NCBI RefSeq assembly: GCF_002931075.1
Contig: NZ_PSTQ01000013.1
Location: 1-64,000 of the forward strand
From: Pseudoclavibacter sp. AY1F1
GTDB lineage: Bacteria; Actinomycetota; Actinomycetes; Actinomycetales; Microbacteriaceae
Direction of reading: 5' to 3'
DNA: 64,000 nt
Shown here: piece after piece, positions 12,380-60,691 of the stretch
How the letters are laid out: every line of letters begins with the position of its first letter
Numbering within the stretch: the stretch's first letter is position 1
Notes under the pieces: generated by a model
The model's input: only the letters and a program-made list of their open reading frames with translations
Databases searched by the model: none
Told to the model about the DNA's origin: nothing
Translations under genes and position numbers: made by a program

Positions 12380-12451
12380 GCGCGGAGTGCCAGCGCAGCG
12401 CGGAGTGCCAGCGCAGCGCGGAGTGCCAGCGCAGCGCGGAGTGCCAGCGCA
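12380..12451. repeat. 18-bp tandem repeat, four perfect copies
   Basis: The unit GCGCGGAGTGCCAGCGCA occurs four times without a mismatch. It fills the gap between the glpK terminator and the trpD stop codon (12463), so it lies in the 3' region of both convergent genes. Confidence 0.95.
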
Positions 12452-12462
12452 GCGCGCCGGCG

Positions 12463-13521
12463 TCAGGCTGCGCGGGTCGCCGCCACCCAGGCGTCAAGCG
12501 TCTCGATGGCGCGGCCGCTGTCGATGCTCTCTGCCGCATCCACGATCCTCGCCGAGAGGCGCTCACGGAGGGGGCGCTCCGCCGCTTCCGGGTTCTGCGC
12601 GAGGTCGTAGGCCACGAGGCCAGCGGCTGCGTTGAGCAGCACGATGTCACGGACCGCGCCGTGGCGCTTCCCGGAGAGAACGTCGCGAGCGATCGCGGCG
12701 TTCTCCTCGGGCAGGCCGCCGAGGAGCTCCTGCATGTCATAGGTGCCGAGGCCAACGTCGCGAGGGTGCAGGTCGTGCTCCGTGATGGCCCCGTTCGAGA
12801 CCTCCCAGATGTGGCTGTACCCGGTGACGCTCAGCTCATCGAGGCCGTCGTCCCCCCGGAAGACGAGGGCCGTCGCGCCGCGCGTGCGGAACACTCCCGT
12901 GATGAGCGGAATCGCGGCCTGGCGCGCCACTCCTACCGCGGATGCCTCCGGTCTCGCTGGATTGGTGAGCGGGCCGAGCAGGTTGAACACGGTCGGCACG
13001 CCGAGCTCGCCGCGGACTTTCCTGGCGTGGCCGAAGCCGGGGTGGAACTGCGCAGCGTAGACGAAGGTGAGACCGACCTCCTCGAAGATCCGCCTCACGC
13101 GAACGGGATCGGCCGTGTGCACGGCTCCAAGCGCCGAGAGCACGTCGCTGGAGCCCGACTTGGCACTGGATGCGCCTCCCCCGTGCTTCACGACCGGGAT
13201 GCCAGCGCCGGCACAGACCATCGAGGCCATCGTGGAGACATTGACTGTGCCCACCATGTCGCCCCCCGTTCCGACGATGTCGAGAGCCATGGGCGGCACG
13301 TCGAGCGGCACGGCGTGCTCAAGGATGGCGTCCCGAAAACCGACAACCTCCTCGACCGTCTCACCCTTGGCGCGCAGGGCGACGAGGAAAGCCGCGAGCC
13401 TCGCCTCGCTCACCTCGCCACTCATGACCTGGCGCATAGCCCACGTCGCCTGCGCGACGCTGAGGTCTTCACCGCCAAGCAGCTTTTCGAGCAGTCCGGG
13501 CCAGGTCTCGGTCGAAGTCAT
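12463..13521 (-). CDS. trpD: Anthranilate phosphoribosyltransferase
   Basis: A 352-residue enzyme of tryptophan synthesis, transferring phosphoribose from PRPP to anthranilate. The PRPP loop GTGGDMVGTVNVST and the conserved KHGGGASSAKSGSSD segment are visible. The ATG at 13521 is chosen because TATCGT lies seven bases upstream. An upstream in-frame start at 13554 would add residues that do not fit. No other trp gene is near, so this is an orphan trpD. It is divergent from ctaE across 106 bp, the same trpD-ctaE neighbourhood I recall in M. tuberculosis (Rv2192c-Rv2193). Confidence 0.94.
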   Translation of the reverse strand: MTSTETWPGLLEKLLGGEDLSVAQATWAMRQVMSGEVSEARLAAFLVALRAKGETVEEVVGFRDAILEHAVPLDVPPMALDIVGTGGDMVGTVNVSTMASMVCAGAGIPVVKHGGGASSAKSGSSDVLSALGAVHTADPVRVRRIFEEVGLTFVYAAQFHPGFGHARKVRGELGVPTVFNLLGPLTNPARPEASAVGVARQAAIPLITGVFRTRGATALVFRGDDGLDELSVTGYSHIWEVSNGAITEHDLHPRDVGLGTYDMQELLGGLPEENAAIARDVLSGKRHGAVRDIVLLNAAAGLVAYDLAQNPEAAERPLRERLSARIVDAAESIDSGRAIETLDAWVAATRAA

Positions 13522-13534
13522 GCAGGAAACGATA
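13522..13534 (-). promoter_or_regulatory. Putative leaderless promoter of trpD
   Basis: On the minus strand TATCGT (13534-13529) is followed by TTCCTGC and the ATG at 13521, without a ribosome-binding site. Confidence 0.45.
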
Positions 13535-13615
13535 GCCGTCCACCACCCAGGCACACCTAATCGATCGCGACCCGCCGAGCGAGCCCGCGTTGTCTCGGGA
13601 ACCTGGGAAATCGGT

Positions 13616-13627
13616 CATAATGGTCAG
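13616..13627 (+). promoter_or_regulatory. Putative leaderless promoter of ctaE-qcrCAB
   Basis: CATAAT (13616-13621) is followed by six bases and the GTG start of ctaE at 13628. This fits a leaderless transcript for the respiratory operon. It is inferred from spacing only. Confidence 0.5.
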
Positions 13628-14260
13628 GTGACTGCTGCAACTTCCGCTCAGGCCGTGCACACGGTCCATCGCCCCAATACGACTGCCATCGGCGTCATCG
13701 TTTGGCTCGGTAGCGAAGTGATGTTCTTCGCAGGGCTCTTCGCGATCTTCTTCACGCTGCGCTCAATGGCGCCGGAGCAGTTCGCCGAAGGCCACAGCGT
13801 GCTGAACGTGCCCTTCGCGACCGTCAACACGCTCATCCTCGTGAGCTCGTCCTTCACGTGCCAGTTCGGCACGTTCGCGGCCGAGCGCGAGCAGGCGCGC
13901 GCCACTGGCAAGAGCCCCAAGAACTGGGGTGCCATCGAGTGGTTCTACCTCACGGTCCTCCTCGGCGGCATCTTCGTCGCTGGCCAGGTCTGGGAGTACG
14001 CGACCCTCGTGAGCGAGGGCTACGTGCTCAACCTCAACGCGTACACGAGTGCCTTCTACATGACGACCGGCTTCCACGGCTTGCACGTGACGGGCGGACT
14101 CGTCACGTTCCTCCTCGTCATCGGCCGCATGTACTCGGCACGACGGATGGGCACGCGTGAAGTCAGCAGCGCACTCGGCATCTCCTACTACTGGCACTTC
14201 GTCGACGTGGTCTGGGTTGCACTCTTCTTCGTCATCTACCTGCTGCCCTACTTCTCGTAG
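13628..14260 (+). CDS. ctaE: Cytochrome c oxidase subunit III (aa3 type)
   Basis: A 210-residue, five-helix subunit III of the cytochrome aa3 oxidase, of the short actinobacterial kind. Residues such as LGSEVMFFAGLFAIFF and the C-terminal YYWHFVDVVWVALFFVIYLLPY are typical. The frame is open far upstream over trpD, but the GTG at 13628 is the credible start, six bases after a CATAAT box. It leads the ctaE-qcrC-qcrA-qcrB operon, so one oxidase subunit is co-expressed with the bcc complex it joins. Confidence 0.95.
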   Translation: MTAATSAQAVHTVHRPNTTAIGVIVWLGSEVMFFAGLFAIFFTLRSMAPEQFAEGHSVLNVPFATVNTLILVSSSFTCQFGTFAAEREQARATGKSPKNWGAIEWFYLTVLLGGIFVAGQVWEYATLVSEGYVLNLNAYTSAFYMTTGFHGLHVTGGLVTFLLVIGRMYSARRMGTREVSSALGISYYWHFVDVVWVALFFVIYLLPYFS

Positions 14261-14282
14261 CCCGATCCTGGAGAACACACAA

Positions 14283-15116
14283 ATGTTCCGAACGACCAAA
14301 CCACGGACTGCGAAGACGGCGACCCGCAAGACGGCGCGCCGCCGCACCCCCCTCGCGACCGCGGCCCTCCTCGGAGCCGGGCTCCTCCTCACGGGCGGCG
14401 CATACACAGCGATCGACTCGGCGACCACGGCCGCAGCGGCAGAGGAAGCAGCGCCCGCTTCAGCCGCCGAGATCGAGAACGGCGCAGCACTCTTCGGCGC
14501 CAACTGCGCCACCTGCCACGGCATGAACGCAGCAGGCACGGAAAACGGACCGAGCCTCATCGGAGTCGGAGCGGCAGCCGTCGACTTCCAGGTCGGAACC
14601 GGCCGCATGCCGATGCAGGCAAACGCAGCACAGGCGCCGGCCAAGCCCGTCCAGTTCGACGAGCAGGGAATCAACGACCTCGGCGAGTACGTCGCGTCAC
14701 TGGCCCCCGGCCCGGCAGTTCCAGACGAGCGCTACCTCCAGGCTGACGGCGACGCCGCGCGAGGTGCAGAGCTCTTCCGCATCAACTGCGCAATGTGCCA
14801 CAACGTGGCCGGCGCGGGTGGCGCGCTGACCGAGGGTAAGTTCGCCCCCGAGCTCATGACCGTCGAGCCCGTGCACCTCTACGAGGCCATGATCACCGGA
14901 CCGCAGAACATGCCGGTGTTCAACGACGCGAACCTCACCCCGCAGGACAAGGCCGACATCATCACGGCCATCCGCTGGCAGACCGAGGTCACCGGCACCA
15001 TCGGCGGCAACAGCCTCGGCTCGCTCGGACCCGTCTCCGAAGGCCTCTTCATCTGGATCTTCGGGATCGGCGCCGGCGTCGCGATGGCTGTCTGGATCGC
15101 CACTCGACCGAACTAG
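14283..15116 (+). CDS. qcrC: Di-haem cytochrome c subunit of the bcc complex (QcrC)
   Basis: A 277-residue membrane-bound dihaem cytochrome c. A basic N-terminus and signal/anchor helix (about 24-42) precede two haem-binding motifs, CATCH (75-79) and CAMCH (169-173), and a C-terminal transmembrane helix (about 252-272). It takes electrons from the Rieske centre directly to CuA of the oxidase, replacing a soluble cytochrome c as in other actinobacteria. The ATG at 14283 follows GGAG. It lies 22 bp after ctaE. Confidence 0.96.
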   Translation: MFRTTKPRTAKTATRKTARRRTPLATAALLGAGLLLTGGAYTAIDSATTAAAAEEAAPASAAEIENGAALFGANCATCHGMNAAGTENGPSLIGVGAAAVDFQVGTGRMPMQANAAQAPAKPVQFDEQGINDLGEYVASLAPGPAVPDERYLQADGDAARGAELFRINCAMCHNVAGAGGALTEGKFAPELMTVEPVHLYEAMITGPQNMPVFNDANLTPQDKADIITAIRWQTEVTGTIGGNSLGSLGPVSEGLFIWIFGIGAGVAMAVWIATRPN

Positions 15117-15185
15117 TGGCTGAAGACTGCCTCAGGCACCAAAGACATACTGCAGCTGAACAGACACACCCAGAAAGGGATCACC

Positions 15186-16265
15186 ATGGCTGATGGCGAA
15201 CACGGCGGAGAGCTTCGCACTGCTCCTTCGTCGGAGCGGGCGCCTCACATCGGGACCGCGATCCTTCCCAAGGACGGCTTCGAGAACCCCGGAATGCCGG
15301 CGCATCGCGACCGGATCACCGACGCGGACCCAGCACAGGCGAAGCGCACTGAGCGCATCCTTGTCGCACTGTTCGTGTTCTCGGCGCTCGCCAGCATCTT
15401 CGCTGTCGTCGCGTACTTCGTGTGGCCCATCAGCCGCGAGGACATCTCGACCGTTCGTGCCAACAACATGTTCCTCGGCATCGGCATCGCACTCGCGATG
15501 CTGGCCATAGGCATCGGCACGGTCGCCTGGTCCAAGTACCTCATGGCCGACCACGAGATGGCAGAAGCACGCCACCCGGGCAAGGGCTCCCCTGCGACCC
15601 GCTCGCGTGCTGTCGAGGTGTTCGCGCAGGCCAACGAAGAGTCCGGCTTCAGCCGCCGCAAGCTGTTCCGCAACTCGCTGATCGGCGCGCTCGTGGCCAT
15701 GCCGCTTCCCGGCATCGTGCTGTTCCGCGACCTCTACAACGGCAACAACCCGGACCCGGTCCAGGCACTCTCCCACACCATGTGGGAGGAAGGTACCCGC
15801 CTGGTCCGCGACCCTACGGGCACCCCGATCCGCGCAGCTGACGTCACCTACGGCTCCGCGTTCCACGTCATCCCGGACGGCCTCATCGATCTCGAGCACC
15901 ACATGCTCGAGGAGAAGGCCAAGGCCGTTGTTCTCCTCATGCGTCTGCCCGCAGACCAGCTCAACGAGCGCGAGGACCGTGCCGGCTGGTCGTATGACGG
16001 CATCGTCGCCTACTCCAAGGTCTGCACGCACGTTGGCTGCCCCGTTGCTCTCTACGAGCAGCAGACGCACCACCTGCTCTGCCCGTGCCACCAGTCGCAG
16101 TTCGACGTCAAGAACCACTGCGAGGTCATCTTCGGACCGGCCGGTCGACCGCTCCCGCAGCTGCCTATCGCCGTCGACGACGAGGGCTACCTGATCGCGC
16201 AGAGCGACTTCACTGAACCTGTCGGACCGAGCTTCTGGGAGCGACGCCATGACTACAACGTATAA
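15186..16265 (+). CDS. qcrA: Rieske iron-sulphur subunit of the bcc complex (QcrA)
   Basis: A 359-residue actinobacterial Rieske protein with three N-terminal transmembrane helices. The 2Fe-2S ligands are Cys280 and His282 in CTHVGCP, and Cys299 and His302 in CPCH. Cys285 and Cys301 are placed for the stabilising disulphide. It oxidises menaquinol and passes an electron to QcrC. A good ribosome site, GAAAGGGATCACC, precedes the ATG. Its 3' end overlaps qcrB by 17 bp, implying translational coupling. Confidence 0.96.
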   Translation: MADGEHGGELRTAPSSERAPHIGTAILPKDGFENPGMPAHRDRITDADPAQAKRTERILVALFVFSALASIFAVVAYFVWPISREDISTVRANNMFLGIGIALAMLAIGIGTVAWSKYLMADHEMAEARHPGKGSPATRSRAVEVFAQANEESGFSRRKLFRNSLIGALVAMPLPGIVLFRDLYNGNNPDPVQALSHTMWEEGTRLVRDPTGTPIRAADVTYGSAFHVIPDGLIDLEHHMLEEKAKAVVLLMRLPADQLNEREDRAGWSYDGIVAYSKVCTHVGCPVALYEQQTHHLLCPCHQSQFDVKNHCEVIFGPAGRPLPQLPIAVDDEGYLIAQSDFTEPVGPSFWERRHDYNV

Positions 16266-17853
16266 AGCTCCGGTACGCGAAGGCGGCTTCATCGCAGGCG
16301 CCGCCAACTACCTCGACGAGCGCACCACCATCTCCGGTGCGGTCAAGGAGTTCGGTCGCAAGATCTTCCCGGACCACTGGTCCTTCATGCTCGGCGAGAT
16401 CGCGCTCTACAGCTTCGTCGTCATCCTGCTCTCCGGCACCTTCCTGACGTTCTTCTTCGACCCGTCGATGGCGCACGTCGAATACGAGGGTTCCTACCTC
16501 CCGCTGAAGGGCATGGGCATGTCGGCCGCTATGGCGTCGACGCTCGACATCTCCTTCGACATCCGCGGTGGCCTCCTCATGCGCCAGGTGCACCACTGGG
16601 CAGCCCTGCTGTTCGTGGCATCGATCGGCCTGCACATGCTGCGCGTCTTCTTCACGGGAGCGTTCCGCAAGCCACGTGAGCTCAACTGGGTCGTCGGCTT
16701 CGTTCTCTTCATCCTCGCGATGGCAGAGGGCTTCACCGGCTACTCGCTTCCCGATGATCTGCTGTCCGGCAACGGCCTCCGCATCATCGACGGCATCATG
16801 AAGGGCATCCCGCTCGTCGGCACCTGGGTCTCATTCCTCTTCTTCGGTGGAGAGTTCCCTGGCACGGAGATCGTGGGGCGCCTCTACTCGCTGCACATCA
16901 TGATCCTGCCCGCGATGGTCATCCTCTTCATCGCGTTGCACCTGGCGCTCATGGTGATCAACAAGCACACGCAGTGGCCTGGCCCCGGCCGCACCAACGG
17001 CAACGTCGTCGGAAACCCGGTTCTCCCGGTCTTCGCCGGCAAGGCAGGCGGATTCTTCTTCCTGATCTTCGGACTCATCTTCCTCATCGCGTCGTTCTTC
17101 TCGATCAACCCGGTCTGGAACTACGGCCCGTACGACCCGTCTCCCGTTTCCGCTGGAACCCAGCCAGACTGGTACATCGGCTTCGCCGACGGCATGCTCC
17201 GTCTCATCCCGCCGGGCTGGGAAGTGTACTGGTTCGACCACACCTGGTCGTTCGCGATCCTCACGCCGCTGATCCTCATCGGAATCTTCATCGTGCTGGT
17301 TGTCGTGTACCCGTTCATCGAGGCCTGGATCACCGGTGACAAGCGCGAGCACCACCTGCTCGACCGTCCGCGCAATGCGCCGACCCGCACCGCCATCGGC
17401 GCTGCCGGCGTTACGTTCTACGCGGTCATGTGGGCAGCGGCGAGCTCGGACCTCATGGCAACGCACTTCCACCTCGCCATGGAACACGTCATCCACTTCC
17501 TGCAGGTGATGCTGTTCCTCGGGCCAGTCATCGCGTACTTCGCTACGAAGCGGATCTGCCTCGGCCTGCAGAAGCGCGACCGGTCGCTTGCACTCCACGG
17601 AGTCGAGTCAGGGCGAGTGCTGCGACTCCCCCACGGCGAGTTCGTCGAGGTCGAGGTTCCGCTCGACAAGTACGACCGCTGGGAGCTCGTCTCCTACAAC
17701 GAGCAGGCACCGATCATGCTGCGCCCGAACGCGGACGGCAAGATCACGGCCCCGATGCGACTGCGCGCGGCCCTGTCCCGCTGGTTCTTCGAGGACCGGG
17801 TCGAGCCCGTCACGAAGACGGAGATTGAGCAAGCACACCACGGCCACCACTAG
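16249..17853 (+). CDS. qcrB: Cytochrome b subunit of the bcc complex (QcrB)
   Basis: A 534-residue cytochrome b carrying the two b haems and the menaquinol sites. Haem-ligand His pairs are visible in the VHHWAALLFVASIGLH and SLHIMILPAMVILFIALH regions. The C-terminal extension of about 120 residues beyond the helices is typical of actinobacterial QcrB. The start lies inside qcrA. It is the last gene of the operon and is followed by a strong hairpin at 17911 and then by the large repeat-filled gap. Confidence 0.96.
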   Translation: MTTTYKAPVREGGFIAGAANYLDERTTISGAVKEFGRKIFPDHWSFMLGEIALYSFVVILLSGTFLTFFFDPSMAHVEYEGSYLPLKGMGMSAAMASTLDISFDIRGGLLMRQVHHWAALLFVASIGLHMLRVFFTGAFRKPRELNWVVGFVLFILAMAEGFTGYSLPDDLLSGNGLRIIDGIMKGIPLVGTWVSFLFFGGEFPGTEIVGRLYSLHIMILPAMVILFIALHLALMVINKHTQWPGPGRTNGNVVGNPVLPVFAGKAGGFFFLIFGLIFLIASFFSINPVWNYGPYDPSPVSAGTQPDWYIGFADGMLRLIPPGWEVYWFDHTWSFAILTPLILIGIFIVLVVVYPFIEAWITGDKREHHLLDRPRNAPTRTAIGAAGVTFYAVMWAAASSDLMATHFHLAMEHVIHFLQVMLFLGPVIAYFATKRICLGLQKRDRSLALHGVESGRVLRLPHGEFVEVEVPLDKYDRWELVSYNEQAPIMLRPNADGKITAPMRLRAALSRWFFEDRVEPVTKTEIEQAHHGHH

Positions 17854-17910
17854 GCCGCAGTAACTCCCGGCCCTCCTGGGCTGACCCACCCGCCCTCCTG
17901 GGCTGAGAAC

Positions 17911-17947
17911 GGGGCTGTCAGATTCGCGCAAGCGGTCTGGCAGCCCC
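17911..17947 (+). terminator. Rho-independent terminator of ctaE-qcrCAB
   Basis: GGGGCTGTCAGA pairs with TCTGGCAGCCCC (one G-T pair) around a 13-base loop and is followed by TTTCTTGTC. It lies 57 bp after the qcrB stop. Confidence 0.85.
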
Positions 17948-17982
17948 TTTCTTGTCTCCGGAGGACACGTCTCCCTTCTCCA

Positions 17983-18160
17983 CGCTGCGCGCGCCTGCGT
18001 CCTCCTCCGCTCCCCACTGCGCGCGCCTGCGTCCTCCTCCGCTCCCCGCTGCGCACGCCTGCTTCCTCCCCTGCTCCCCGCTGCGCACGCCTGCTTCCTC
18101 CCCTGCTCAACGCTGCGCACGCCTGCTTCCTCCCCTGCTCAACGCTGCGCGCTCCTGCCC
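17983..18160. repeat. 32-bp tandem repeat, about 5.5 copies
   Basis: Units start at 17983, 18015, 18047, 18079 and 18111, with a partial unit at 18143. Each begins CGCTGCGC (CACTGCGC in unit 2). The first two units share the CTGCGTCCTCCTCCGCTCC variant and the next three share CTGCTTCCTCCCCTGCTC, so neighbours are most alike, which indicates growth by local duplication. Confidence 0.92.
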
Positions 18161-18202
18161 GTGACCGGTTGCGCCCCGCTCTCGGCTACTCATCGCTGCA
18201 AA

Positions 18203-18252
18203 GTTGTGGCTCAATGCGGTCAGAAGCCACGCCAACGACGACCAGCCACAAC
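18203..18252. repeat. 50-bp element with 9-bp inverted ends, copy 1
   Basis: It begins GTTGTGGCT and ends AGCCACAAC, a perfect 9-bp inverted repeat. It shares 20 of its first 21 bases with the copy at 18914, including CAATGCGGTCAG, and its last 9 bases exactly. The 20-base interior differs. Both copies are exactly 50 bp. Confidence 0.75.
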
Positions 18253-18302
18253 GCTGTGCGAGTCAGTCCGCAAGCCGGTCGCTCCTTGACCGCGCGGCTC
18301 CG

Positions 18303-18318
18303 TTGACCGCGCGGTCAA
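18303..18318. promoter_or_regulatory. 16-bp perfect palindrome in the island
   Basis: TTGACCGCGCGGTCAA is a perfect palindrome, and 12 of its bases (TTGACCGCGCGG) also occur just upstream at 18286-18297. It is operator-like, but no gene start is near, so it may simply be part of the repeat landscape. Confidence 0.4.
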
Positions 18319-18475
18319 CGGCCGAAGGAATGCACGTCGAGCTCTGTGGCGACAGTTCTGCCCCATCATCGCCTCAACCAGGTCCGGATTCAGGCCTGCC
18401 AGAATCGTCAATCGACCGTCCGGCGGTCTCAGAGGCTTCTTGCAAACCCTCAGCGCAGAACAACGAACGGGACGG

Positions 18476-18607
18476 CTGGCGGGTAGACCGGTCTGGCGGG
18501 TAGACCGGTCTGGCGGGTCGACACCGCCCTGGAGTCTCGACCGGCCCGAAGTCTCGACCGGCCCGAAGTCTCGACCGGCCCGAAGTCTCGACCGGCCTGG
18601 AGTCTCG
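18476..18607. repeat. 17-bp tandem repeat, two sub-families
   Basis: A 17-bp period covers 132 bp. Two units of CTGGCGGGTAGACCGGT (18476, 18493) and a diverged third are followed by CTGGAGTCTCGACCGGC, three identical units of CCGAAGTCTCGACCGGC (18546, 18563, 18580) and a final partial CTGGAGTCTCG unit. Both sub-families contain the core GACCGG. Confidence 0.9.
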
Positions 18608-18913
18608 CACAGACGGCGGCATTCGCTCAGATCATGGACGTGCTGAGCGTCGCGGCGATATCAGCAGTCGTCTGGGTCAGATGGCTCGCACGTAGCTGGC
18701 CCACCTTCGATGCCGCGCACCGTGTCCGCACGCTCCGAACCTACGAGCTTCATCAGCACTTCGGATAGCTAGAGATTGCGATGCCCATCCGAAGCCGCCC
18801 TGGTGGGGAGCACAACCCGCCGCAATCCTGTGCGGGCGTGACCGAGCCGTGCCAGACAGGTGAACCAGGGACAGCCCCGAACCAGCACAGACGCGAACCA
18901 GGTCAGGGGCATC

Positions 18914-18963
18914 GTTGTGGCGCAATGCGGTCAGCTACTGCAGGAACGACAGCTAGCCACAAC
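18914..18963. repeat. 50-bp element with inverted ends, copy 2
   Basis: It begins GTTGTGGCG and ends AGCCACAAC. It is the second copy of the element at 18203, with conserved outer parts and a different interior of the same length. The inverted ends pair for 8 bp here. Confidence 0.75.
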
Positions 18964-19018
18964 TCTCGGCGCATCTGGCATTCAGGTCGCCCGGCGGCGA
19001 GTGTACGGAGCACACCGG

Positions 19019-19132
19019 GCTTCAGTAGCTGGTCCGGGCTTCAGTAGCTGGTCCGTGCTTCAGTAGCTGGTCCGTGCTTCAGTAGCTGGTCCGTGCTTCA
19101 GTAGCTGGTCCGGGCTTCGGTAGCTGGTCCGG
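19019..19132. repeat. 19-bp tandem repeat, six copies
   Basis: Six 19-bp units of GCTTCAGTAGCTGGTCCGT start at 19019, 19038, 19057, 19076, 19095 and 19114. Differences are limited to the last base (G or T), the next-to-last block in unit 6, and one A-to-G change in unit 6. Confidence 0.95.
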
Positions 19133-19369
19133 GGCCTGGGATCTGGGCTACGGACTTGCGCTCCGAGCCCCGCCATGAGCTTGGCGGTCGATCTGTGGCC
19201 GGGCGTCGTGCGTGGGACTGCAGCAGTGCGTAGAAGGCTCGGGCTCGGCTGGCGGCCACGCGAGAAGTGCCAGCCGCCGCCACTCACGCGCGGTATCGGT
19301 GCCGAGACAGGGATCCCGCACGCTTGCGGGGCCCCTGATAGCCGCTGCGTGGCTGCGGGCACAGCAAAA

Positions 19370-19396
19370 GGCCCGCCCCTCGGAAGAGGGACGGGC
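19370..19396 (-). terminator. Rho-independent terminator of ctaC-ctaD-ctaF
   Basis: On the minus strand a GC-rich stem, GGCCCGTCCCTC pairing with GAGGGGCGGGCC, with a TTCC loop, is followed by TTTTGCTG. It lies 20 bp after the ctaF stop. Confidence 0.85.
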
Positions 19397-19416
19397 CAGA
19401 AGTCTGCAGACGGCGC

Positions 19417-25161: not shown

Positions 25162-25206
25162 CCCACGAACGCGCGGACTCACTCGGGAGCCAGCAGTGCT
25201 TGACGG

Positions 25207-25263
25207 CCGGCAGCGCCCGACACTCGGCGCCACACCCGATACCCGGCAGCGCCCGACACCCGG
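25207..25263. repeat. 21-bp direct repeat pair in a convergent gap
   Basis: Two copies starting CCGGCAGCGCCCGACAC, at 25207-25227 and 25243-25263, differ by one base. Between them a diverged CCACACCCGATACCCGG suggests a decayed middle unit. They lie just before the shared terminator of the DUF3043 gene and pyrD. Confidence 0.8.
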
Positions 25264-25272
25264 CAACAAACT

Positions 25273-25306
25273 CGAAGGCCCGAACGGTATTCCGCTCGGG
25301 CCTTCG
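25273..25306. terminator. Bidirectional terminator between DUF3043 gene and pyrD
   Basis: CGAAGGCCCGA pairs with TCGGGCCTTCG around a 12-base loop. AACAAA lies just before it and TTTGTT just after, so either strand gives a stem followed by a T-rich tract. Confidence 0.85.
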
Positions 25307-25420
25307 CTTTGTTCAATGTAGACCGGCGGCGTGAACTGAAGGTGTCAGCTGCCTGAGAATCAGGGAAAGAACACGAACTGTGACCTTTGAATGGCAGCGC
25401 ACCTCAACCCCTGCGGCGCG

Positions 25421-34150: not shown

Positions 34151-34159
34151 GTCGGCCAC

Positions 34160-34260
34160 CTTTCGACTCTCTCTGCGATTGGTCTGTATCTGGTATAGAC
34201 ATTCGGTCTTGAGTCAAGACACTGGACTTGATTCAGGACTCTGGGTCTGAGTTGACAACA
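34160..34260 (-). promoter_or_regulatory. Upstream region of divIVA with palindromic TTGA/TCAA motifs
   Basis: On the minus strand this segment holds CTTGACTCAAG, an 11-bp palindrome that also contains a TTGACT -35-like hexamer, followed by TATACC and GATACA as -10 candidates. Related half-sites, such as CTGAATCAAG and TTGTCAACTCAG, lie just upstream. It probably carries the divIVA promoter; the exact hexamers are uncertain. Confidence 0.45.
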
Positions 34261-34383
34261 CTAGCGTTGCCCAGATGTGCGCGCAGAACGTTGCTGTGCT
34301 GCGCGGCACATAGGTCACATTACGGCACTTGGGTCCCGTGCGTCACATTCTGTCGGGAAAGTCGATATTCACCTAATGCAATC

Positions 34384-34411
34384 CGGCGCCGTCTCTCCAG
34401 TGGGAGACGCC
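34384..34411 (-). terminator. Possible terminator after yggT
   Basis: On the minus strand GGCGTCTC pairs with GAGACGGCGCC (one bulge) around a short loop, 28 bp after the yggT stop. There is no T-run. The 288-bp gap between yggT and divIVA holds this hairpin and the divIVA promoter region, and no gene. Confidence 0.4.
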
Positions 34412-34438
34412 GGGAGCCCTCGGGGCGCGTGATCACAC

Positions 34439-51676: not shown

Positions 51677-51702
51677 GCACGCCTCCCTCCCAGTCGTTGA
51701 AT

Positions 51703-51737
51703 CCCCACATGCTCCACTTTACTCCACAACCACCCAC
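51703..51737 (-). promoter_or_regulatory. Putative MraZ operator: four GTGG boxes at about 10-bp spacing
   Basis: On the minus strand GTGGGT, GTGGAG, GTGGAG and GTGGGG follow each other at 10-, 10- and 9-bp steps, from 27 bp upstream of the mraZ ATG. Same-face direct repeats just upstream of mraZ are the known form of MraZ operators. TAGATG just upstream could be the -10 element. Confidence 0.65.
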
Positions 51738-51779
51738 ACATCTACGCAAACGCGAGCTTTGTCGCCTGTGAATGCAGAA

Positions 51780-51804
51780 TGAGGCCAGTAATTTACTGGC
51801 CTCA
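51780..51804. promoter_or_regulatory. Perfect palindrome upstream of the mraZ promoter
   Basis: TGAGGCCAGTA and TACTGGCCTCA form a perfect 11-bp inverted repeat around ATT, about 105 bp upstream of mraZ. It has no T-run on either strand and could be an operator or an mRNA hairpin. The rest of the 373-bp gap between mraZ and the DUF3040 gene holds the MraZ boxes, a terminator and a minisatellite. Confidence 0.5.
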
Positions 51805-51855
51805 CGGTGGTGGAGGGAAGTGGAGCACATCCACGTACTTTCGGGTACAAAAAAC

Positions 51856-51879
51856 GGGACCGGCCAGGTGGCCGGTCCC
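51856..51879 (-). terminator. Rho-independent terminator of the DUF3040 gene
   Basis: GGGACCGGCC and GGCCGGTCCC form a perfect 10-bp stem with a four-base loop. On the minus strand it is followed by GTTTTTTG, the classic form. It lies 170 bp after the DUF3040 stop, beyond the minisatellite. Confidence 0.9.
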
Positions 51880-51882
51880 GAA

Positions 51883-52001
51883 GTGGTGCTGCGTGGTGCT
51901 GCGTGGTGCGGAGTGGGGTGGTGCTTGGTGCGGAGTGGGGTGGTGCTTGGTGCGGAGTGGGGTGGTGCTTGGTGGTGCTTGGTGGTGACTTGGCGGTGGT
52001 G
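51883..52001. repeat. GTGGTGCT-based minisatellite (10-bp and 22-bp periods)
   Basis: Three 10-bp units of the GTGGTGCTGC type are followed by 22-bp units containing GGTGCGGAGTGGGGTGGTGC and then by shorter GGTGGTGCTT units. The array lies between the DUF3040 stop and its terminator. It would therefore be in the 3' untranslated part of that transcript. Confidence 0.88.
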
Positions 52002-52049
52002 AGCTCGCGCCGGAGCTAGGCCAGGTCTGGCCTTACTCCCGCTCGGGCA

Positions 52050-52433: not shown

Positions 52434-52508
52434 GTTGACCTCGTGCTCAAGGGGCGATCGGAGCCCCGCTCCGAAGTATTGCGCCCATTGTAGGCGCGTG
52501 CACCTGGG

Positions 52509-52520
52509 TAGAGTGGTGTC
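52509..52520 (+). promoter_or_regulatory. Putative leaderless promoter of the polyprenyl synthase gene
   Basis: TAGAGT (52509-52514) is followed by six bases and the GTG start at 52521. No ribosome-binding site is present. Confidence 0.5.
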
Positions 52521-53603
52521 GTGTCTGAGAGTTCTGCGCTGTCCTCCAAAGTCCAGCGTCGTCTGGACGCCACAATTGCCGAGAACCTGCGAGTCCTGGG
52601 GCCTATCGGGGTCGATGTTCCCGCCTTCCTCGAGCAGGCGGCGGCATTCACGACCGGCGGCAAGCGACTGCGAGCCTCGTTCTGCGCCGCGGGCTTCAGC
52701 AGCGCAAGCGGCTCGTCAGAGCACAGCGATGCCGTCGAGCTGGCCGCAGCATCGATTGAGCTCTTCCACGCCGCCGCGCTTGTCCACGACGACATCATCG
52801 ACCGATCGGATACGCGCCGCGGCTCCCCCTCCACGCACCGCGCCTTCGCCAAGCATCACAGGGCCTCAGCGTGGGCTGGCGACGAAGAGCACTTCGGGCT
52901 GAGCGCCGCCATCCTGCTCGGCGACCTCCTCCTCGTGTGGAGCGACCAGCTGTTCGTGGAGGCTTGCGCCCTGGTCTCCCCCGAGAACGCCGTCCGAGCG
53001 CGAGCGGAGTTCAGCAAGATGCGCGGCGAGGTGACCATCGGCCAGTACCTCGACCTCGTGGAGGAAGTGGCCTGGCCCGTTGTGCCGATCGATGCCCGCG
53101 CCGCAAGGGCGAAGACCATCGCGATCTCGAAGTCGGCGAGGTACAGCGTCGAAGAGCCCCTCGTGCTCGGCGCGCTCCTCGGCGGAGCATCTAACTCGCT
53201 CGTCGAGCAGATCCGCGCGTTCGGGCTGCCTCTGGGACTCGCGTTCCAGCTCAGAGACGACGTCCTCGGCGTCTTCGGCGACGAGGCCGTCACGGGCAAG
53301 CCAAGCGGAGACGACCTCCGCGAGGGGAAGCGCACACTCATGATCGCCGCCGCGCAGGAGTTGGTGACGGCAGAAGACTCGGCACGCCTCGACGAACTGC
53401 TCGGCGACCAGGGCCTCACCGACGCCGACATCGAGTGGATGCAGGCGCTCATCACGAACTCCGGCGGCCTTCAGCGCACGGAGGAACTCATCAGTTCCTC
53501 GCTGAGGGAGGCACTCGCGGGCCTCAGAAGCATCGAACTCGACGAGTCGTCCCGACGTCTGCTCGAAGAGCTCGCGGAACGCACGGCGCACCGAGAGCAC
53601 TGA
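52521..53603 (+). CDS. Polyprenyl (geranylgeranyl-type) diphosphate synthase
   Basis: A 360-residue trans-prenyltransferase. The first aspartate-rich motif reads DDIID and the second DDVLG, with GGKRLRASF in the N-terminal part. It elongates allylic diphosphates with isopentenyl diphosphate for menaquinone, carotenoid or other isoprenoids; chain length cannot be fixed by eye. From memory it corresponds to IdsA2 (Rv2173) of M. tuberculosis, which lies near pknL. The 3' end faces the Rv2175c-like gene across a 19-bp repeat. Confidence 0.9.
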   Translation: MSESSALSSKVQRRLDATIAENLRVLGPIGVDVPAFLEQAAAFTTGGKRLRASFCAAGFSSASGSSEHSDAVELAAASIELFHAAALVHDDIIDRSDTRRGSPSTHRAFAKHHRASAWAGDEEHFGLSAAILLGDLLLVWSDQLFVEACALVSPENAVRARAEFSKMRGEVTIGQYLDLVEEVAWPVVPIDARAARAKTIAISKSARYSVEEPLVLGALLGGASNSLVEQIRAFGLPLGLAFQLRDDVLGVFGDEAVTGKPSGDDLREGKRTLMIAAAQELVTAEDSARLDELLGDQGLTDADIEWMQALITNSGGLQRTEELISSSLREALAGLRSIELDESSRRLLEELAERTAHREH

Positions 53604-53668
53604 TGCCGCATCGAGACCACAGACACCGCGCCTAGGTACTGAATTTTCGCCGAGACCCTATTGCCACG

Positions 53669-53731
53669 CCGAGAGCAAAGTTCTGTGCCGAGAGCCAAAT
53701 TTTGTGCCTAGAGCAAAGTTTTGTGCCTAGA
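53669..53731. repeat. 19-bp tandem repeat, 3.3 copies, containing a stop codon
   Basis: Units at 53669, 53688 and 53707 begin CCGAGAGC, CCGAGAGC and CCTAGAGC; a fourth starts at 53726 (CCTAGATC). The TAG stop of the minus-strand Rv2175c-like gene (53729-53727) lies in the first bases of unit 4. The repeat is AT-rich compared with its surroundings. Confidence 0.88.
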
Positions 53732-54071
53732 TCGCGAGCAGCTGGACGGCGTGGCGCACCTGGGTCTTGCGCCCCTGCACCAGAGCGTCAAGCGGGGCGA
53801 CGCCGAGGGTCTCGTCCACGCTCAGGAGCCACACCATCTGGTCGTGCGCGCTCAATCCGGCGTCGCCGAGGAGGAACAGCGTGCCGCGGAGGCCAGCAAG
53901 TGGCTCACCATCCTTGATGAACTCCTGAGGGATGCGCGGCTCGCGTTCAATGCGGAACGACAGCAGCTGCTTGTCCTCGATCAGGGTCGACACTCGACCC
54001 GTCGAGACGCCGAGCTCTGCTGCGGCCTGGGGAATCGTGTACCACTCGCGGGTACTGAAGACGTCACTCAC
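53727..54071 (-). CDS. Rv2175c-like helix-turn-helix DNA-binding protein
   Basis: A 114-residue protein with an N-terminal winged helix-turn-helix (WYTIPQAAAELGVSTGRVST...) and the C-terminal domain of the Rv2175c family (DAGLSAHDQMVWLLSVDETLG). The M. tuberculosis homologue binds DNA and is phosphorylated by the kinase PknL next to it. Here a PASTA kinase gene is likewise adjacent and divergent, 109 bp away. The GTG at 54071 is used. Ser6 and Thr7 in the short N-terminus are candidate phosphosites (inference). Confidence 0.88.
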   Translation of the reverse strand: MSDVFSTREWYTIPQAAAELGVSTGRVSTLIEDKQLLSFRIEREPRIPQEFIKDGEPLAGLRGTLFLLGDAGLSAHDQMVWLLSVDETLGVAPLDALVQGRKTQVRHAVQLLAI

Positions 54072-54167
54072 GTCTCACATGGTCGCAGACGCGGCCCCCG
54101 GATGCGAGCTGATGCGATTCCTGGGCCCCTGCGGTGTTTCATCCGGAAGGCGCAGGCATCGTCGGGC

Positions 54168-54180
54168 TATCCTGCACGAC
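54168..54180 (+). promoter_or_regulatory. Putative leaderless promoter of the PASTA kinase gene
   Basis: TATCCT (54168-54173) is followed by seven bases and the GTG start at 54181, with no ribosome-binding site. Confidence 0.5.
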
Positions 54181-56217
<2,037 letters not shown>

Positions 56218-56220
<3 letters not shown>

Positions 56221-56286
56221 CTCTAGCTCTAGCTCTAGCTCTAGCTCTAGCTCTAGCTCTAGCTGTAGCTCTAGCTGTAGCTGTAG
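56218..56286. repeat. CTCTAG hexamer repeat with twelve in-frame TAG codons
   Basis: After the kinase stop TAG (56218-56220), eleven hexamers follow without a break (eight CTCTAG and three CTGTAG). The period is two codons, so every unit repeats TAG in the kinase reading frame. The run ends at CTCGAC. It lies directly before a bidirectional terminator. Confidence 0.97.
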
Positions 56287-56300
56287 CTCGACCTGCTGAA

Positions 56301-56351
56301 CGACAAAAGAAGAGGCGCACCCCGTTTCCGGGGTGCGCCTCTTCTGTCGTT
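56301..56351. terminator. Bidirectional terminator between pknL and the DAHP synthase gene
   Basis: AGAAGAGGCGCACCCCG pairs perfectly with CGGGGTGCGCCTCTTCT (17 bp) around TTTC, with ACGACA and TGTCGT extending it. It serves both convergent genes; the DAHP synthase stop is 9 bp away. Confidence 0.9.
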
Positions 56352-56359
56352 CAGCTGAC

Positions 56360-57745
56360 TCAGCGCTTTCCGGCGCGGAGCTCCTCCGCCACGAGGAACG
56401 CGAGCTCCAGCGACTGCATGTGGTTGAGGCGTGGGTCGCAGAGCGACTCGTAGCGCGTCTCGAGCGTCTTCTCATCGATCTGCTCGGATCCTCCGAGGCA
56501 CTCGGTCACGTCGTCGCCCGTCAGCTCCACGTGGATGCCACCCGGGTGCGTTCCTGCGGCGCGGTGCGCCTCGAAGAAGCCCTTGACCTCATCCACGACG
56601 TCGTCGAAGCGACGCGTCTTGTAGCCGTTCGGCGTCGTGATGCCGTTGCCGTGCATGGGGTCGGTGATCCACAGCGGCTGCGCGTCGCTGCTCTTGATGG
56701 CCTCAAGCAGGGGCGGGAGGGCGTCGCGGATCTTGCCAGCACCCATGCGCGTGATGAACGTCAGGCGTCCAGGCTCACGGTTCGGGTCGATCTTGTCGAT
56801 GAGTCGCATCATCGTCTCGGGAGTCGTCGACGGCCCAAGCTTCACACCGATCGGGTTCTTCACTCGGCTGAAGAAGTCCACGTGCGCCTCGTCGAGGTCG
56901 CGTGTCCGCTCTCCGATCCAGATGAAGTGACCAGAGGTGTCGTACGGCTGTCCCGTGCGCGAGTCGATGCGGGTCATGGGGCGCTCGTAGTCCATGAGGA
57001 GCCCCTCGTGGCCGACGAAGAACTCCACATCGCGCAGCGCGTAGAAGTCCGCGCCAGCAGCGGCCATGAATCGCACCGCGCGGTCGATCTCCGCGGCGAG
57101 CTGCTCGTAGCGCGCGTTCGCCGGGTTCGCCGCGAAGCCCTGGTTCCAGGAGTGCACTTCACGGAGATCGGCGAAGCCGCCCGTCGTGAACGCGCGCACG
57201 AGGTTCAGCGTGGAAGCGGCCGTGTGGTAGCCGCGGAGCATCCGCTCGGGGTCGGGGGTGCGCCCCTCAGCCGTGAAGTCGAAGTCGTTGACGATGTCGC
57301 CACGGTAGGCCGGCAGGGTCACGTCGCCGCGCGTCTCGTTGTCGCTCGAACGGGGCTTGGCGAACTGGCCCGCCATGCGGCCCATCTTGACGACGGGCAT
57401 CGAGGCGCCGTACGTCAGGACAACCGCCATCTGGAGGATCGTGCGCACACGGGCACGGATCTTGTCGGCGGTCGCCCCAGCGAAGGTCTCGGCGCAGTCA
57501 CCACCCTGGAGGACAAAGGACTGCCCCGCCGCGGCCGTCGCGATGCGATCGCGAAGACGGTCGACCTCGCCTGCGAAGACCAGCGGCGGCAGCGACGCGA
57601 GCTCACCGGAGACGCTCGCGACCTTGGTCGGATCGCCCCACTGCGGCTGCTGCCTGATCGGCAGATCGCGCCAGGCGTCGAGGCCCTCGAGCACGCCAGG
57701 GGGCGTCGGGATCGACTCGGTGCGGGTGGAAGTGAATTCGTTCAT
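56360..57745 (-). CDS. aroG: Class II 3-deoxy-7-phosphoheptulonate (DAHP) synthase
   Basis: A 461-residue type II DAHP synthase, the first enzyme of the shikimate pathway, condensing PEP and erythrose-4-phosphate. QGGDCAETFAG, KMGRMAGQFAKPRSS, GVKLGPSTTPE and TDPMHGNGI are conserved active-site and metal-site segments. From memory it matches AroG (Rv2178c), near pknL in M. tuberculosis. AGAGAAGCGAG precedes the ATG. A five-codon frame (ATGAGATCAGAGACATGA) lies just upstream and might act as a leader peptide, though it has no aromatic codons. Confidence 0.95.
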   Translation of the reverse strand: MNEFTSTRTESIPTPPGVLEGLDAWRDLPIRQQPQWGDPTKVASVSGELASLPPLVFAGEVDRLRDRIATAAAGQSFVLQGGDCAETFAGATADKIRARVRTILQMAVVLTYGASMPVVKMGRMAGQFAKPRSSDNETRGDVTLPAYRGDIVNDFDFTAEGRTPDPERMLRGYHTAASTLNLVRAFTTGGFADLREVHSWNQGFAANPANARYEQLAAEIDRAVRFMAAAGADFYALRDVEFFVGHEGLLMDYERPMTRIDSRTGQPYDTSGHFIWIGERTRDLDEAHVDFFSRVKNPIGVKLGPSTTPETMMRLIDKIDPNREPGRLTFITRMGAGKIRDALPPLLEAIKSSDAQPLWITDPMHGNGITTPNGYKTRRFDDVVDEVKGFFEAHRAAGTHPGGIHVELTGDDVTECLGGSEQIDEKTLETRYESLCDPRLNHMQSLELAFLVAEELRAGKR

Positions 57746-57877
57746 GCTCGCTTCTCTGATCTCATGTCTCTGATCTCATACCGACAGCTCGTTGGCTGCA
57801 GCACTGGTGGTTCTGAATCTCACGCTGAACGGCCCCGACGATACTCGGGGCAGCTCGCTCGGCGCTCGGCTGATCGC

Positions 57878-58597
57878 TCAGGGCTTCTGGGCGGCGGCGA
57901 GAGCCTTGGAGTCTGCGTCCATCTTGTTCCGGATGGACGAGGCATAGATGTCGCGATAGTCCTGGTTGCTGAGGGCGTGCAGCTCGCTCATGATCTCGTC
58001 GGTGATCGAGCGGAGCACGAAGCGGTCGGCCGCCATGCCCTCGTAGCGGGTGAACGTGAGGGGCTCGCCGAACACCATGCCGACCTTGCGGAGGCGGGGC
58101 ACCTTCGCGCCGATCGGCAGCACCCGCTCGGTGTCGACCATGACAACCGGCACAACCGTGACCGGCTTGTCCGCCTGCATGATCATGCGGGCGATGCCTG
58201 TCCGGCCCCGGAACATGCGGGCGTCTGGGCTGCGTGTCCCCTCGGGATAGATGCCGAGCACCTTGCCTTCGCTCAGTACCCGGAGGCCAGTCTGCAGCGA
58301 AGCCTCGCTGGCAGCTCCGCCACCACGATCGATGGGGAGCATCCCAGTGCTCTTGAAGAACTGCGCGGTCAGCCAGCCCTTGATTCCCGTACCCGTGAAG
58401 TACTCCTTCTTCGCGAGGAAGAAGACGCGGCGGTCGATCGAGAGCGGCATGAAGAAGGAGTCGATGACCGAGAGGTGATTCGACGCCAGAATGACCGGCC
58501 CTTTCGCCGGGATGTTCTCGACGCCGCGCACCCAGGGGCGGAAGGTTCCGCGCACCAAGGGACCTGCGAAGAGATGCTTGAGCACCCAATACAACAT
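57878..58597 (-). CDS. 1-acyl-sn-glycerol-3-phosphate acyltransferase (PlsC family)
   Basis: A 239-residue acyltransferase with the catalytic NHLSVID (HX4D type) and YPEGTRS glycerophosphate-binding motifs, and a hydrophobic N-terminal segment. It probably makes phosphatidic acid or acylates a related lipid. The ATG at 58597 follows GGGAGG; an in-frame ATG at 58771 adds unlikely sequence. It is divergent from fadD across 173 bp and lies 132 bp upstream of the DAHP synthase gene. Confidence 0.9.
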   Translation of the reverse strand: MLYWVLKHLFAGPLVRGTFRPWVRGVENIPAKGPVILASNHLSVIDSFFMPLSIDRRVFFLAKKEYFTGTGIKGWLTAQFFKSTGMLPIDRGGGAASEASLQTGLRVLSEGKVLGIYPEGTRSPDARMFRGRTGIARMIMQADKPVTVVPVVMVDTERVLPIGAKVPRLRKVGMVFGEPLTFTRYEGMAADRFVLRSITDEIMSELHALSNQDYRDIYASSIRNKMDADSKALAAAQKP

Positions 58598-58770
58598 GCG
58601 TGGCCTCCCGATAGGCGATGGCACATCAGTGTACTCGGGACATGCCCGCCCCGTTGCGCCGCTCGCCGTGTCCGAAACGGTAGGGTTGGGGACCACTGAA
58701 CCCGAACCTGGACAACCAGGCTCAGAGACGTTCAGGCGGCTCACGACCAGGACGATACTCAGGAGTTGCA

Positions 58771-60591
58771 ATGAAGCTATCCGAGACCCCCGCCGTAGTC
58801 AGCCCCGAGCCGAGCTGGAACACCACAGACATGCTCGAGTACCGGCTGCGTGACTCACCGGACCTCCCGCTCTTCGCCTTGCCGGAAGGCGAGACCTGGC
58901 GGGATGTCTCCGTTCGGGAGTTCCACGCCAAGGTTCTCGACCTCGCGAAGGGATTCGTTGCCGCCGGCATCGAGCCGGGCGAGCGCATCGCGTTCGTGGC
59001 GAAGACCAACTACGAATGGACGCTCGTCGATTTCGCCCTCTGGTACGCGGGTGCGGTCATGGTTCCCGTCTACGAGACGAGCTCGTCGGCGCAGATCGAG
59101 TGGATGCTCGAGGACTCCGACGCCGTCGGGATCATCTCTGAGCTCCCAGAGCACGACGACAAGCTCGACGAGATCGGCGACACCGTCTCCGCTCTTCGAA
59201 TTCGGTATGCCCTGCATGCGGGGGCCATCGAGGAGCTCATCCGTCTCGGCGTCGACGTCGACGTCGCGGAGATCGAGCGACGTCGGGGCATCGCCACCGG
59301 GGCGGACATGGCGACCCTCATCTACACCTCGGGGTCGACGGGCCGCCCGAAGGGCTGCGTCATCACGCACTCCAACTTCGTCGAGCTGTGCCGCAACGTG
59401 AAGGACCCCCTCGGCGCACTCATCTACCCCGGCGCGTCCACTGTGCTCTTCATCACGCTCGCGCACGTCTTCGCCCGCTTCATCTCGGTGCTGTGCATCT
59501 ACGGCGGGGTGAAAGTCGGCCACCAGCACGACACGTCGAAGCTCGTCGAGTCGCTCGGCACCTTCCACCCGACGTTCCTCCTCGCCGTGCCGCGCGTCTT
59601 CGAGAAGGTCTACAACTCCGCGGAGCAGAAGGCCGAAGCCGGCGGCCGCGGCAAGATCTTCCGCAAGGCGGCCGACGTCGCCGTGCGCTACTCGGAGTCG
59701 CAGGATGCAGGGCGGACGCCGCTTGTCCTCGGGCTCCAGTACAAGCTCTTCGACAAGCTCGTCTACTCGAAGCTCCGCGAAGTCATGGGTGGCCGAGTGA
59801 AGCACGCCGTGTCCGGCTCGGCTCCGCTCGGTTCCAGGCTCGGCCACTTCTACCGTGCCATCGGCGTCAACATCCTGGAGGGCTACGGCCTCACAGAAAC
59901 CACGGCGCCCGCTTCCGTGAACCTCGCCGAGAAGTCGAAAATCGGCACCGTCGGACCGGCACTACCAGGCGTCGCGGTCCGCACCGACGAGCATGGCGAG
60001 CTGCAGGTCAAGGGCATCAACGTCTTCCGGGAATACTGGAAGAACCCCGAAGCGACGGCCGCCGCGTTCGACGGCGACTGGTTCAAGACGGGCGACCTCG
60101 GGACAATCGACGACGATGGCTACATCACCGTCACCGGCCGCATCAAAGAGATCATCGTGACCTCCGGTGGGAAGAACGTCTCCCCCGCTGCGCTCGAGGA
60201 CCCGATCCGCGCCAACTCGCTGGTCGGCCAGATCGTGGTCGTCGGCGACCAACGGCCCTTCATCTCCGCGCTCGTCACCCTCGACCCCGAGATGCTCAAG
60301 ACCTGGCTGAGCAACAACGGCGAGGACCCGAACATCTCGGTTGCTCAGGCGGCAGAGCACCCCAAGGTGCTTGCTGAGATCCAGCACGCCGTCGACCGCG
60401 CGAACACGCGGGTCTCCCGCGCCGAGTCGATCCGCAAGTTCGTTGTGCTCGACGGAGAGTTCACAGAGGCCAACGGAATGCTGACACCCAAGTTGTCGAT
60501 CAAGCGCCACGTGATCCTCGAGAAGCACCGAGGGATCATCGAGGGCATCTACAACGCCGCCCCCGCCACGCAGGGCATCACGCTTAAGTAG
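58771..60591 (+). CDS. Long-chain fatty-acid--CoA ligase (FadD15-like)
   Basis: A 606-residue AMP-forming acyl-CoA synthetase. The P-loop-like motif YTSGSTGRPKGC, the A5 region EGYGLTETTAP and the A8 region TGDLG...GRIKEIIVTSGGKNVSP are present. The long form with about 600 residues matches mycobacterial FadD15. GGAG precedes the ATG. It sits divergent from an acyltransferase gene, suggesting a lipid-activation and acylation pair. Confidence 0.93.
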   Translation: MKLSETPAVVSPEPSWNTTDMLEYRLRDSPDLPLFALPEGETWRDVSVREFHAKVLDLAKGFVAAGIEPGERIAFVAKTNYEWTLVDFALWYAGAVMVPVYETSSSAQIEWMLEDSDAVGIISELPEHDDKLDEIGDTVSALRIRYALHAGAIEELIRLGVDVDVAEIERRRGIATGADMATLIYTSGSTGRPKGCVITHSNFVELCRNVKDPLGALIYPGASTVLFITLAHVFARFISVLCIYGGVKVGHQHDTSKLVESLGTFHPTFLLAVPRVFEKVYNSAEQKAEAGGRGKIFRKAADVAVRYSESQDAGRTPLVLGLQYKLFDKLVYSKLREVMGGRVKHAVSGSAPLGSRLGHFYRAIGVNILEGYGLTETTAPASVNLAEKSKIGTVGPALPGVAVRTDEHGELQVKGINVFREYWKNPEATAAAFDGDWFKTGDLGTIDDDGYITVTGRIKEIIVTSGGKNVSPAALEDPIRANSLVGQIVVVGDQRPFISALVTLDPEMLKTWLSNNGEDPNISVAQAAEHPKVLAEIQHAVDRANTRVSRAESIRKFVVLDGEFTEANGMLTPKLSIKRHVILEKHRGIIEGIYNAAPATQGITLK

Positions 60592-60614
60592 CAAGCAGTT
60601 CGCGGGCTCAAGCC

Positions 60615-60691
60615 AGCGCCTTCGGCCAACCTCGTCAGTGCTCGACAGTGCTCGTCAGCACTTGTCAGCGAGACGAACGGCCGAAGGCGCT
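60615..60691. terminator. Inverted repeat with 10-bp tandem repeat in its loop (fadD/def junction)
   Basis: AGCGCCTTCGGCC (60615-60627) and GGCCGAAGGCGCT (60679-60691) are perfect 13-bp inverted arms. Between them a degenerate 10-bp repeat of GTCAGTGCTC type runs from 60634 to 60670 and contains the def stop codon (60667-60665). The right arm lies in the def coding sequence. It may end both transcripts. Confidence 0.65.

Follow-up and report, generated by a model that had tools for sequence, protein, structure and literature searches.

We analysed a 64-kb stretch (the window) that opens a 115-kb contig in the draft genome of Pseudoclavibacter sp. AY1F1 (4.1 Mb, 29 contigs), in which the first-pass annotation had described tandem repeats at almost every junction between converging genes. 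We found that short repeats gather behind gene ends, and hence between converging genes, most likely because the DNA there is little constrained. The repeats follow this placement, turn over between species, lie in weakly conserved 3′ flanks and, where they break the reading frame, are nearly absent from genes. We consider it fairly probable that they are locus-specific minisatellites, duplicated in place, purged from genes and surviving best behind stop codons, so that their distribution would mostly reflect tolerance, with converging transcription as a possible contributor.

For gene calling we used a home-made caller based on codon usage; gene ends were set by script, independently of any annotated genome of the family. 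This gave 54 genes and seven convergent junctions in the window, the same number of junctions as reported before. Arrays were identified with Tandem Repeats Finder (TRF) at a score of at least 50 and a period of 5-200 bp, unless stated otherwise. The own-genome sample covered 1.4 Mb outside the window, with about 36% of the genome read and three short stretches reading N dropped, and the window was left out of pooled rates unless stated. The pknL product of the window shares 92% identity with its counterpart in Pseudoclavibacter terrae and 88-91% with those in three other Pseudoclavibacter records, which marks the source as a Pseudoclavibacter-like member of the Microbacteriaceae. A set of related genera was built from 79 loci by removing eleven (the four closest Pseudoclavibacter, three further Pseudoclavibacter and four titled as other phyla or families). 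The 68 that remained, mostly Microbacteriaceae by title and some labelled only Actinomycetota or Micrococcales, include two same-species record pairs. Because every one of them was taken from the neighbourhood of pknL, their gaps sample the same few junctions over and over, in species that are not fully independent.

Outside the window, arrays were found in 34 of 189 convergent, 42 of 577 co-directional and 11 of 216 divergent gaps of the own genome. After adjustment for log gap length, convergent gaps had an odds ratio of 2.62 and divergent gaps one of 0.49 relative to co-directional gaps, and the convergent count was not matched in any of 5000 label shuffles stratified by length. The first-pass annotation had held that its idea would fall if orientation became irrelevant once gap length was controlled; in the own genome the bias persisted under that control. 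It also recurred in P. terrae (convergent 6/56, co-directional 8/204, divergent 1/61; odds ratio 3.6, reached by 105 of 5000 shuffles), in P. helvolus (8/67, 8/205 and 1/68; odds ratio 3.8, 18 of 5000) and in the one neighbourhood of the 68 related-genera loci (23/174, 17/535 and 2/196; odds ratio 4.8, 0 of 5000). Stricter scores weakened the bias in a first, smaller own-genome sample without the window: at a score of at least 80 the counts were 11/139, 17/398 and 5/161 (odds ratio 1.5, 283 of 5000 shuffles), and at 120 or more they were 6/139, 8/398 and 2/161 (odds ratio 1.6, 368 of 5000). When the pooled gaps of at least 20 bp were dinucleotide-shuffled three times each, arrays appeared in only 5 of 1275 convergent, 10 of 3840 co-directional and 0 of 1566 divergent sequences, compared with 71/425, 75/1280 and 15/522 real gaps, indicating that the arrays exceed what composition gives by chance. 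Array periods in the pooled gaps were most frequent at 14-19 bp, with 89 of the 182 arrays in this range; the score threshold may account for some of this peak. The description "almost every junction" fits the window and fails elsewhere, as the own-genome count shows; at that rate, the chance of at least five of seven junctions carrying an array is 0.003, before allowing for the way the window was selected. Taken together, the placement bias is real and not confined to the own genome, while the window is an outlier and most convergent junctions have no array.

The flanks of genes differ in the constraint that they carry. In 50-bp flanks compared between window genes and their orthologues in four relatives, median identity was 92% before starts (n = 113) and 70% after stops (n = 107), with a mean of 60% for random pairs. 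Frame-breaking arrays in the three Pseudoclavibacter samples were rare inside genes (0.010 per kb in the interior of coding sequences, 0.017 in the first 60 bp and 0.025 in the last 60 bp) and rose from divergent (0.18 per kb) through co-directional (0.26) to convergent gaps (0.70). Of the 219 arrays inside genes, 200 had periods divisible by three. Arrays overlapped or abutted the stop codon in 44 cases (2493 stop ends) and the start codon in eight (2603 start ends), where a rough estimate from a uniform supply of duplications, i.e., the observed rate in the next 60 bp multiplied by the mean unit length, gave 32 and 17, respectively. A hot spot at the stop codon itself (relative rate 9.0, 5.9-13.7, within 10 bp) was considered and set aside: given that all arrays crossing a codon collapse onto one point, and that 32 were expected where 44 were seen, most of this peak may be geometry.

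In the window, five of the seven convergent junctions hold an array and a sixth holds a weak one only (Table 1). The arrays consist of head-to-tail copies of a unit within about 6-100 bp, as in minisatellites or variable-number tandem repeats (VNTRs). TRF found the previously described repeats in their places, except that the "21 bp" unit at DUF3043/pyrD did not hold up: the repeat there is weak (17 bp × 3.4 at 69% match by TRF, with a spacing of 36 bp by self-comparison) and is better described as two direct copies than as an array. At the idsA-like/Rv2175c-like junction, a weak 20 bp × 2.2 array (53587-53629) crosses the other, idsA-like stop. In a protein family scan of 16 junction-flanking proteins, 15 matched a family fitting the name first given to them (idsA-like and fadD-like below the curated cut-offs), and the small membrane protein at 4532-5023 had no family match. 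The units differ from locus to locus by eye, in agreement with the earlier statement that they share no sequence, so that a shared repeat family was rejected, as was a dispersed palindromic (REP-type) family with one conserved unit at many loci. The glpK/trpD junction, the sole array junction searched genome-wide, matched itself alone, and Rfam gave no match in the window at the gathering threshold, rejecting a known RNA family. An element of roughly 50 bp, the ends of which match in inverted orientation, occurs twice within the qcrB gap (18203-18252 and 18914-18963). Its left 21 bases had two exact matches in the genome, both in this gap, and one further match with 3 mismatches, and a dispersed palindrome was therefore rejected here too.

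We further compared the seven junctions in five relatives, which gave 27 adjacent orthologous gaps, three of them being overlapping gene ends at kup. An array (score of at least 45) was present in seven of the 27, and none had the window's period at that junction. At pknL/aroG, for example, the 6 bp × 12 array of the window corresponds to 7 bp × 13.7 in P. terrae, 19 bp × 2.2 in P. helvolus and no array in RFBB5, and the glpK/trpD gap had no array at that score in any of the five relatives. In the glpK/trpD, DUF3043/pyrD and pknL/aroG gaps, inspection by eye showed that the part kept between relatives is a terminator-like hairpin, with the arrays in the unconserved spacer that separates it from a stop; the glpK/trpD hairpin is common to four close relatives, with a different one in the relative G003. 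The fadD/def unit has one near-copy at the def stop in P. helvolus and a looser one in AY1H1 (by eye), pointing to a plausible single-copy ancestor. Among 75 loci compared, arrays occurred at the Rv2175c-like junction in eight of 51 loci with both genes adjacent, seven of which cross the Rv2175c-like stop; at pknL/aroG in at least 10 of 45, a list that lacks the P. terrae array; and at fadD/def in one of 35. Some of the Cryobacterium units at the Rv2175c-like stop (loci L025, L033 and L038) resemble one another by eye and may have a common origin. The qcrB gap is also long without a called gene in three relatives (811-1248 bp; 1563 bp here), and in P. helvolus two genes were called there.

We propose that the minisatellites would grow where they are, through slippage and tandem duplication of the DNA already present, out of duplications arising across the genome. 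Those that break a reading frame would be lost and those at start codons thinned, while a duplication behind or over a stop codon would leave the first stop in place and the protein unchanged and, being neutral by this reasoning, could survive as an array; the arrays would then turn over between species. Since convergent gaps offer two 3′ flanks without any start, co-directional gaps one 3′ flank and one start, and divergent gaps two starts, the expected order is convergent, co-directional, divergent. The same order in every set supports this reading, as do the gradient of frame-breaking arrays, the weakly conserved 3′ flanks, the turnover and the equality of pooled rates per stop. In the latter comparison, stops with at least 200 bp array-free carried arrays at equal rates in convergent (13/186) and co-directional (16/243) gaps, and those with 150-400 bp free gave 14/182 and 18/284. 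In co-directional gaps of the three Pseudoclavibacter samples, 20 arrays lay within 10 bp of a stop and six within 10 bp of a start at equal exposure (9216 sites). Arrays overlapped stop codons of co-directional gaps in 17 cases and start codons there in seven.

Several observations weigh against tolerance as the whole explanation. Beyond the codon itself, the stop side of co-directional gaps was hardly favoured, though flanks before starts are well conserved: at 1-60 bp, 30 arrays lay behind stops and 26 before starts (0.42 vs 0.36 per kb), and counts per end were 16/243 for stops vs 8/243 for starts when pooled (p 0.14) and 9/153 vs 7/153 in Pseudoclavibacter (p 0.80). The pooled equality per stop with at least 200 bp free masks opposite tendencies in its two sets, Pseudoclavibacter alone giving 10/110 convergent and 9/153 co-directional (odds ratio (OR) 1.6, p 0.34) and the other genera 3/76 and 7/90 (OR 0.49, p 0.35). 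With at least 100 bp free, convergent stops exceeded co-directional ones (30/376 vs 24/636; OR 2.2, p 0.006), at a length where the next gene's start region occupies much of the co-directional gap. At 1-60 bp from the stop, the rate was 0.98 per kb in convergent vs 0.42 per kb in co-directional gaps, and arrays overlapped 27 of 972 convergent and 17 of 1521 co-directional stops. In a site-level Poisson model of array rate on the distances to stop and start plus a convergent factor, that factor was 2.01 (1.07-3.75) for the 110 frame-breaking arrays. Moreover, a plausible single-copy ancestor was found for the fadD/def unit alone. The near-equal stop and start sides, the higher rate near convergent stops and the opposite-leaning sets thus weaken the tolerance reading. 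For all 182 arrays the same model put the convergent factor at 1.56 (0.99-2.45), and for the 89 with a score of at least 80 it put it at 1.11 (0.61-2.01); in the all-array fit the relative rate was 0.52 at 50-200 bp before a start and 0.81 (0.50-1.33) nearer than 50 bp. The first-pass annotation had suggested a process acting on converging transcription ends. The placement it noticed stands, and the cause it proposed is possible, though stop-overlapping arrays also occur in co-directional gaps, the pooled rates per stop match at 200 bp or more and the 3′ flanks are little conserved. Our reading is that array placement is mostly a 3′-end effect, to which convergence may add.

Such an extra effect would be expected if a mutational process at transcription ends (positive supercoils, stalled polymerases or encounters between replication and transcription), worst at convergent junctions, raised the rate of tandem duplication. 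We regard this as possible though rather unlikely. Its best physical basis among the sources found is the available text of PMC8360656, in which positive supercoiling in E. coli and yeast collects at the 3′ ends of genes and where two genes converge, and it would account for the residual convergent factor for all and for frame-breaking arrays, the higher rate near convergent stops, their lead at 100 bp or more and the stop-codon arrays being somewhat more numerous than the uniform estimate. However, it has to face the lack of a convergent lead in the pooled per-stop rates once at least 200 bp are free, the factor close to one for high-scoring arrays, and weakly conserved 3′ flanks that predict a good part of the pattern by themselves. 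That ends of transcription or translation raise tandem duplication, making 3′ ends, and convergent ones above all, nurseries of minisatellites and not only tolerant ground, is a proposal we hold still more tentatively.

Selection for the arrays, as 3′ spacers, as extra stop codons or as structures insulating converging transcripts, appears improbable to us. The pknL array starts on the TAG of that gene, so its units repeat an in-frame TAG, and the stop-crossing arrays of the Rv2175c-like junction, which include that of the window, would also suit such a role. Yet 155 of 189 convergent gaps have no array, the arrays are mostly not common to close relatives, and in three gaps the conserved piece is the hairpin beside the array; frame-related selection at stops was likewise rejected, since periods divisible by three (12 of the 44 stop-overlapping arrays) showed no excess. 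An artefact of assembly or gene calling is the least credible explanation. The genome is a draft, and the contig begins inside a nearly perfect 21-bp array. Arrays (score of at least 40) lie in the first 150 bp of 7 of 23 contig starts of the own genome, compared with 6.1% of random places, which indicates that assembly breaks tend to fall at arrays and that long arrays are probably under-counted. Further, the gene caller is home-made, and 36 of the 68 co-directional arrays have periods divisible by three, a sign that some sit in missed coding ends. Such missed ends, however, would enlarge the true contrast and not shrink it, most arrays are shorter than about 150 bp by coordinates and could be spanned by a read or read pair, and the same orientation order was obtained in other records of the genus and in related genera. 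On balance, tolerance behind stop codons remains the reading that we prefer.

Arrays also occur elsewhere in the window. Those at the left contig end lie at 1-115, 364-444 and 703-932, left of the first gene; they were not in the first-pass annotation. Contigs C23 and C24 of the own genome open with the same 60 bases, suggesting a repeat that was collapsed or shared where the assembly broke. The DUF3040/mraZ gap carries arrays in 11 of 44 loci, again 3′ of DUF3040, the highest count among six co-directional gaps compared. This gap had been named as the one exception among otherwise array-free divergent and co-directional gaps, a claim that fails at a score of 50: the divergent gap 9627-9837 holds a 28 bp × 2.0 array (score 72), and the co-directional gaps 34151-34438 and 57746-57877 hold weak ones (scores 53 and 54). 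Just upstream of the aroG start lies a perfect 14-bp direct repeat (57753-57779, 1.9 copies), the unit of which is kept in P. helvolus and AY1H1, while TRF found none in P. terrae or RFBB5. In contrast to the other arrays it is shared, so a role as a regulatory site or as a leader element is possible.

Table 1. Repeat arrays at the seven convergent junctions and at two other sites of the window.
Feature	Coordinates	Length	Arrays	Position
kup/small protein, convergent gap	4522-4531	10 bp	none	
glpK/trpD, convergent gap	12293-12462		18 bp × 4.3 (12380-12456)	between terminator-like hairpin and trpD stop
qcrB/cytochrome c oxidase subunit IV, convergent gap	17854-19416	1563 bp	six: 32 bp × 5.8 (17973-18158); 17 bp × 2.1 (18281-18314); 17 bp × 2.8 (18476-18522); 17 bp × 4.4 (18533-18607); 16 bp × 2.4 (18862-18901); 19 bp × 6.3 (19015-19133)	
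DUF3043/pyrD, convergent gap	25162-25420		degenerate direct repeat (25207-25265)	between DUF3043 stop and conserved hairpin
prenyl synthase (idsA-like)/Rv2175c-like, convergent gap	53604-53726		19 bp × 3.4 (53668-53731)	crosses Rv2175c-like stop codon
pknL/aroG, convergent gap	56221-56359		6 bp × 12, TAGCTC (56218-56289)	followed by terminator-like hairpin
fadD-like/def, convergent gap	60592-60664		weak degenerate 10 bp × 2.8 (60631-60658), score 49	
DUF3040/mraZ, co-directional gap	51677-52049		22 bp × 3.6 and 10 bp	3′ of DUF3040, beyond hairpin
left contig end, array-rich	1-1027		21 bp × 5.5; 28/9 bp; 16/8 bp	3′ of minus-strand gene ending at 1028

The rule measured here is that minisatellites of these bacteria sit on or behind stop codons and are thus commonest in gaps with two 3′ ends. 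It helps in the choice of typing markers and in understanding where a draft assembly breaks, and it sets a baseline that any claim of repeat growth driven by transcription has to surpass. Among the titles and abstract openings listed, chiefly from non-subscription literature, there was no report of tandem repeats that are locus-specific and enriched between converging genes of bacteria. Repeats with a preference for 3′ ends have been described before: as far as the available part of PMC3733652 goes, REP elements favour gaps that are convergent or unidirectional, lie for the most part downstream of coding regions and in some cases provide the stop TAG. Those elements, however, are palindromes in dispersed families, whereas the units described here are locus-specific and turn over between species. 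Closest in kind are bacterial minisatellites or VNTRs such as those of Burkholderia pseudomallei, which, in the accessible text of PMC1853098, are tandem arrays lying mostly between genes, as here, with 36.3% at least partly duplicated elsewhere in the genome; that text does not mention gene orientation. They vary between isolates, while our comparison is between species, in which arrays differ or are absent. The TAACTGA direct repeats of Beggiatoaceae resemble our arrays in being short and intergenic, some overlapping the end of the upstream gene, but, according to the portion available of PMC4679880, they have one unit genome-wide and most sets lie just upstream of start codons. Similarly, the heptameric G-rich repeats of Xanthomonas and Nostoc are intergenic and were sorted by gene orientation (PMC4692102, available part); there, one unit occurs at many loci and is more stable between genomes than control gaps, unlike the arrays behind the stop codons of Pseudoclavibacter.

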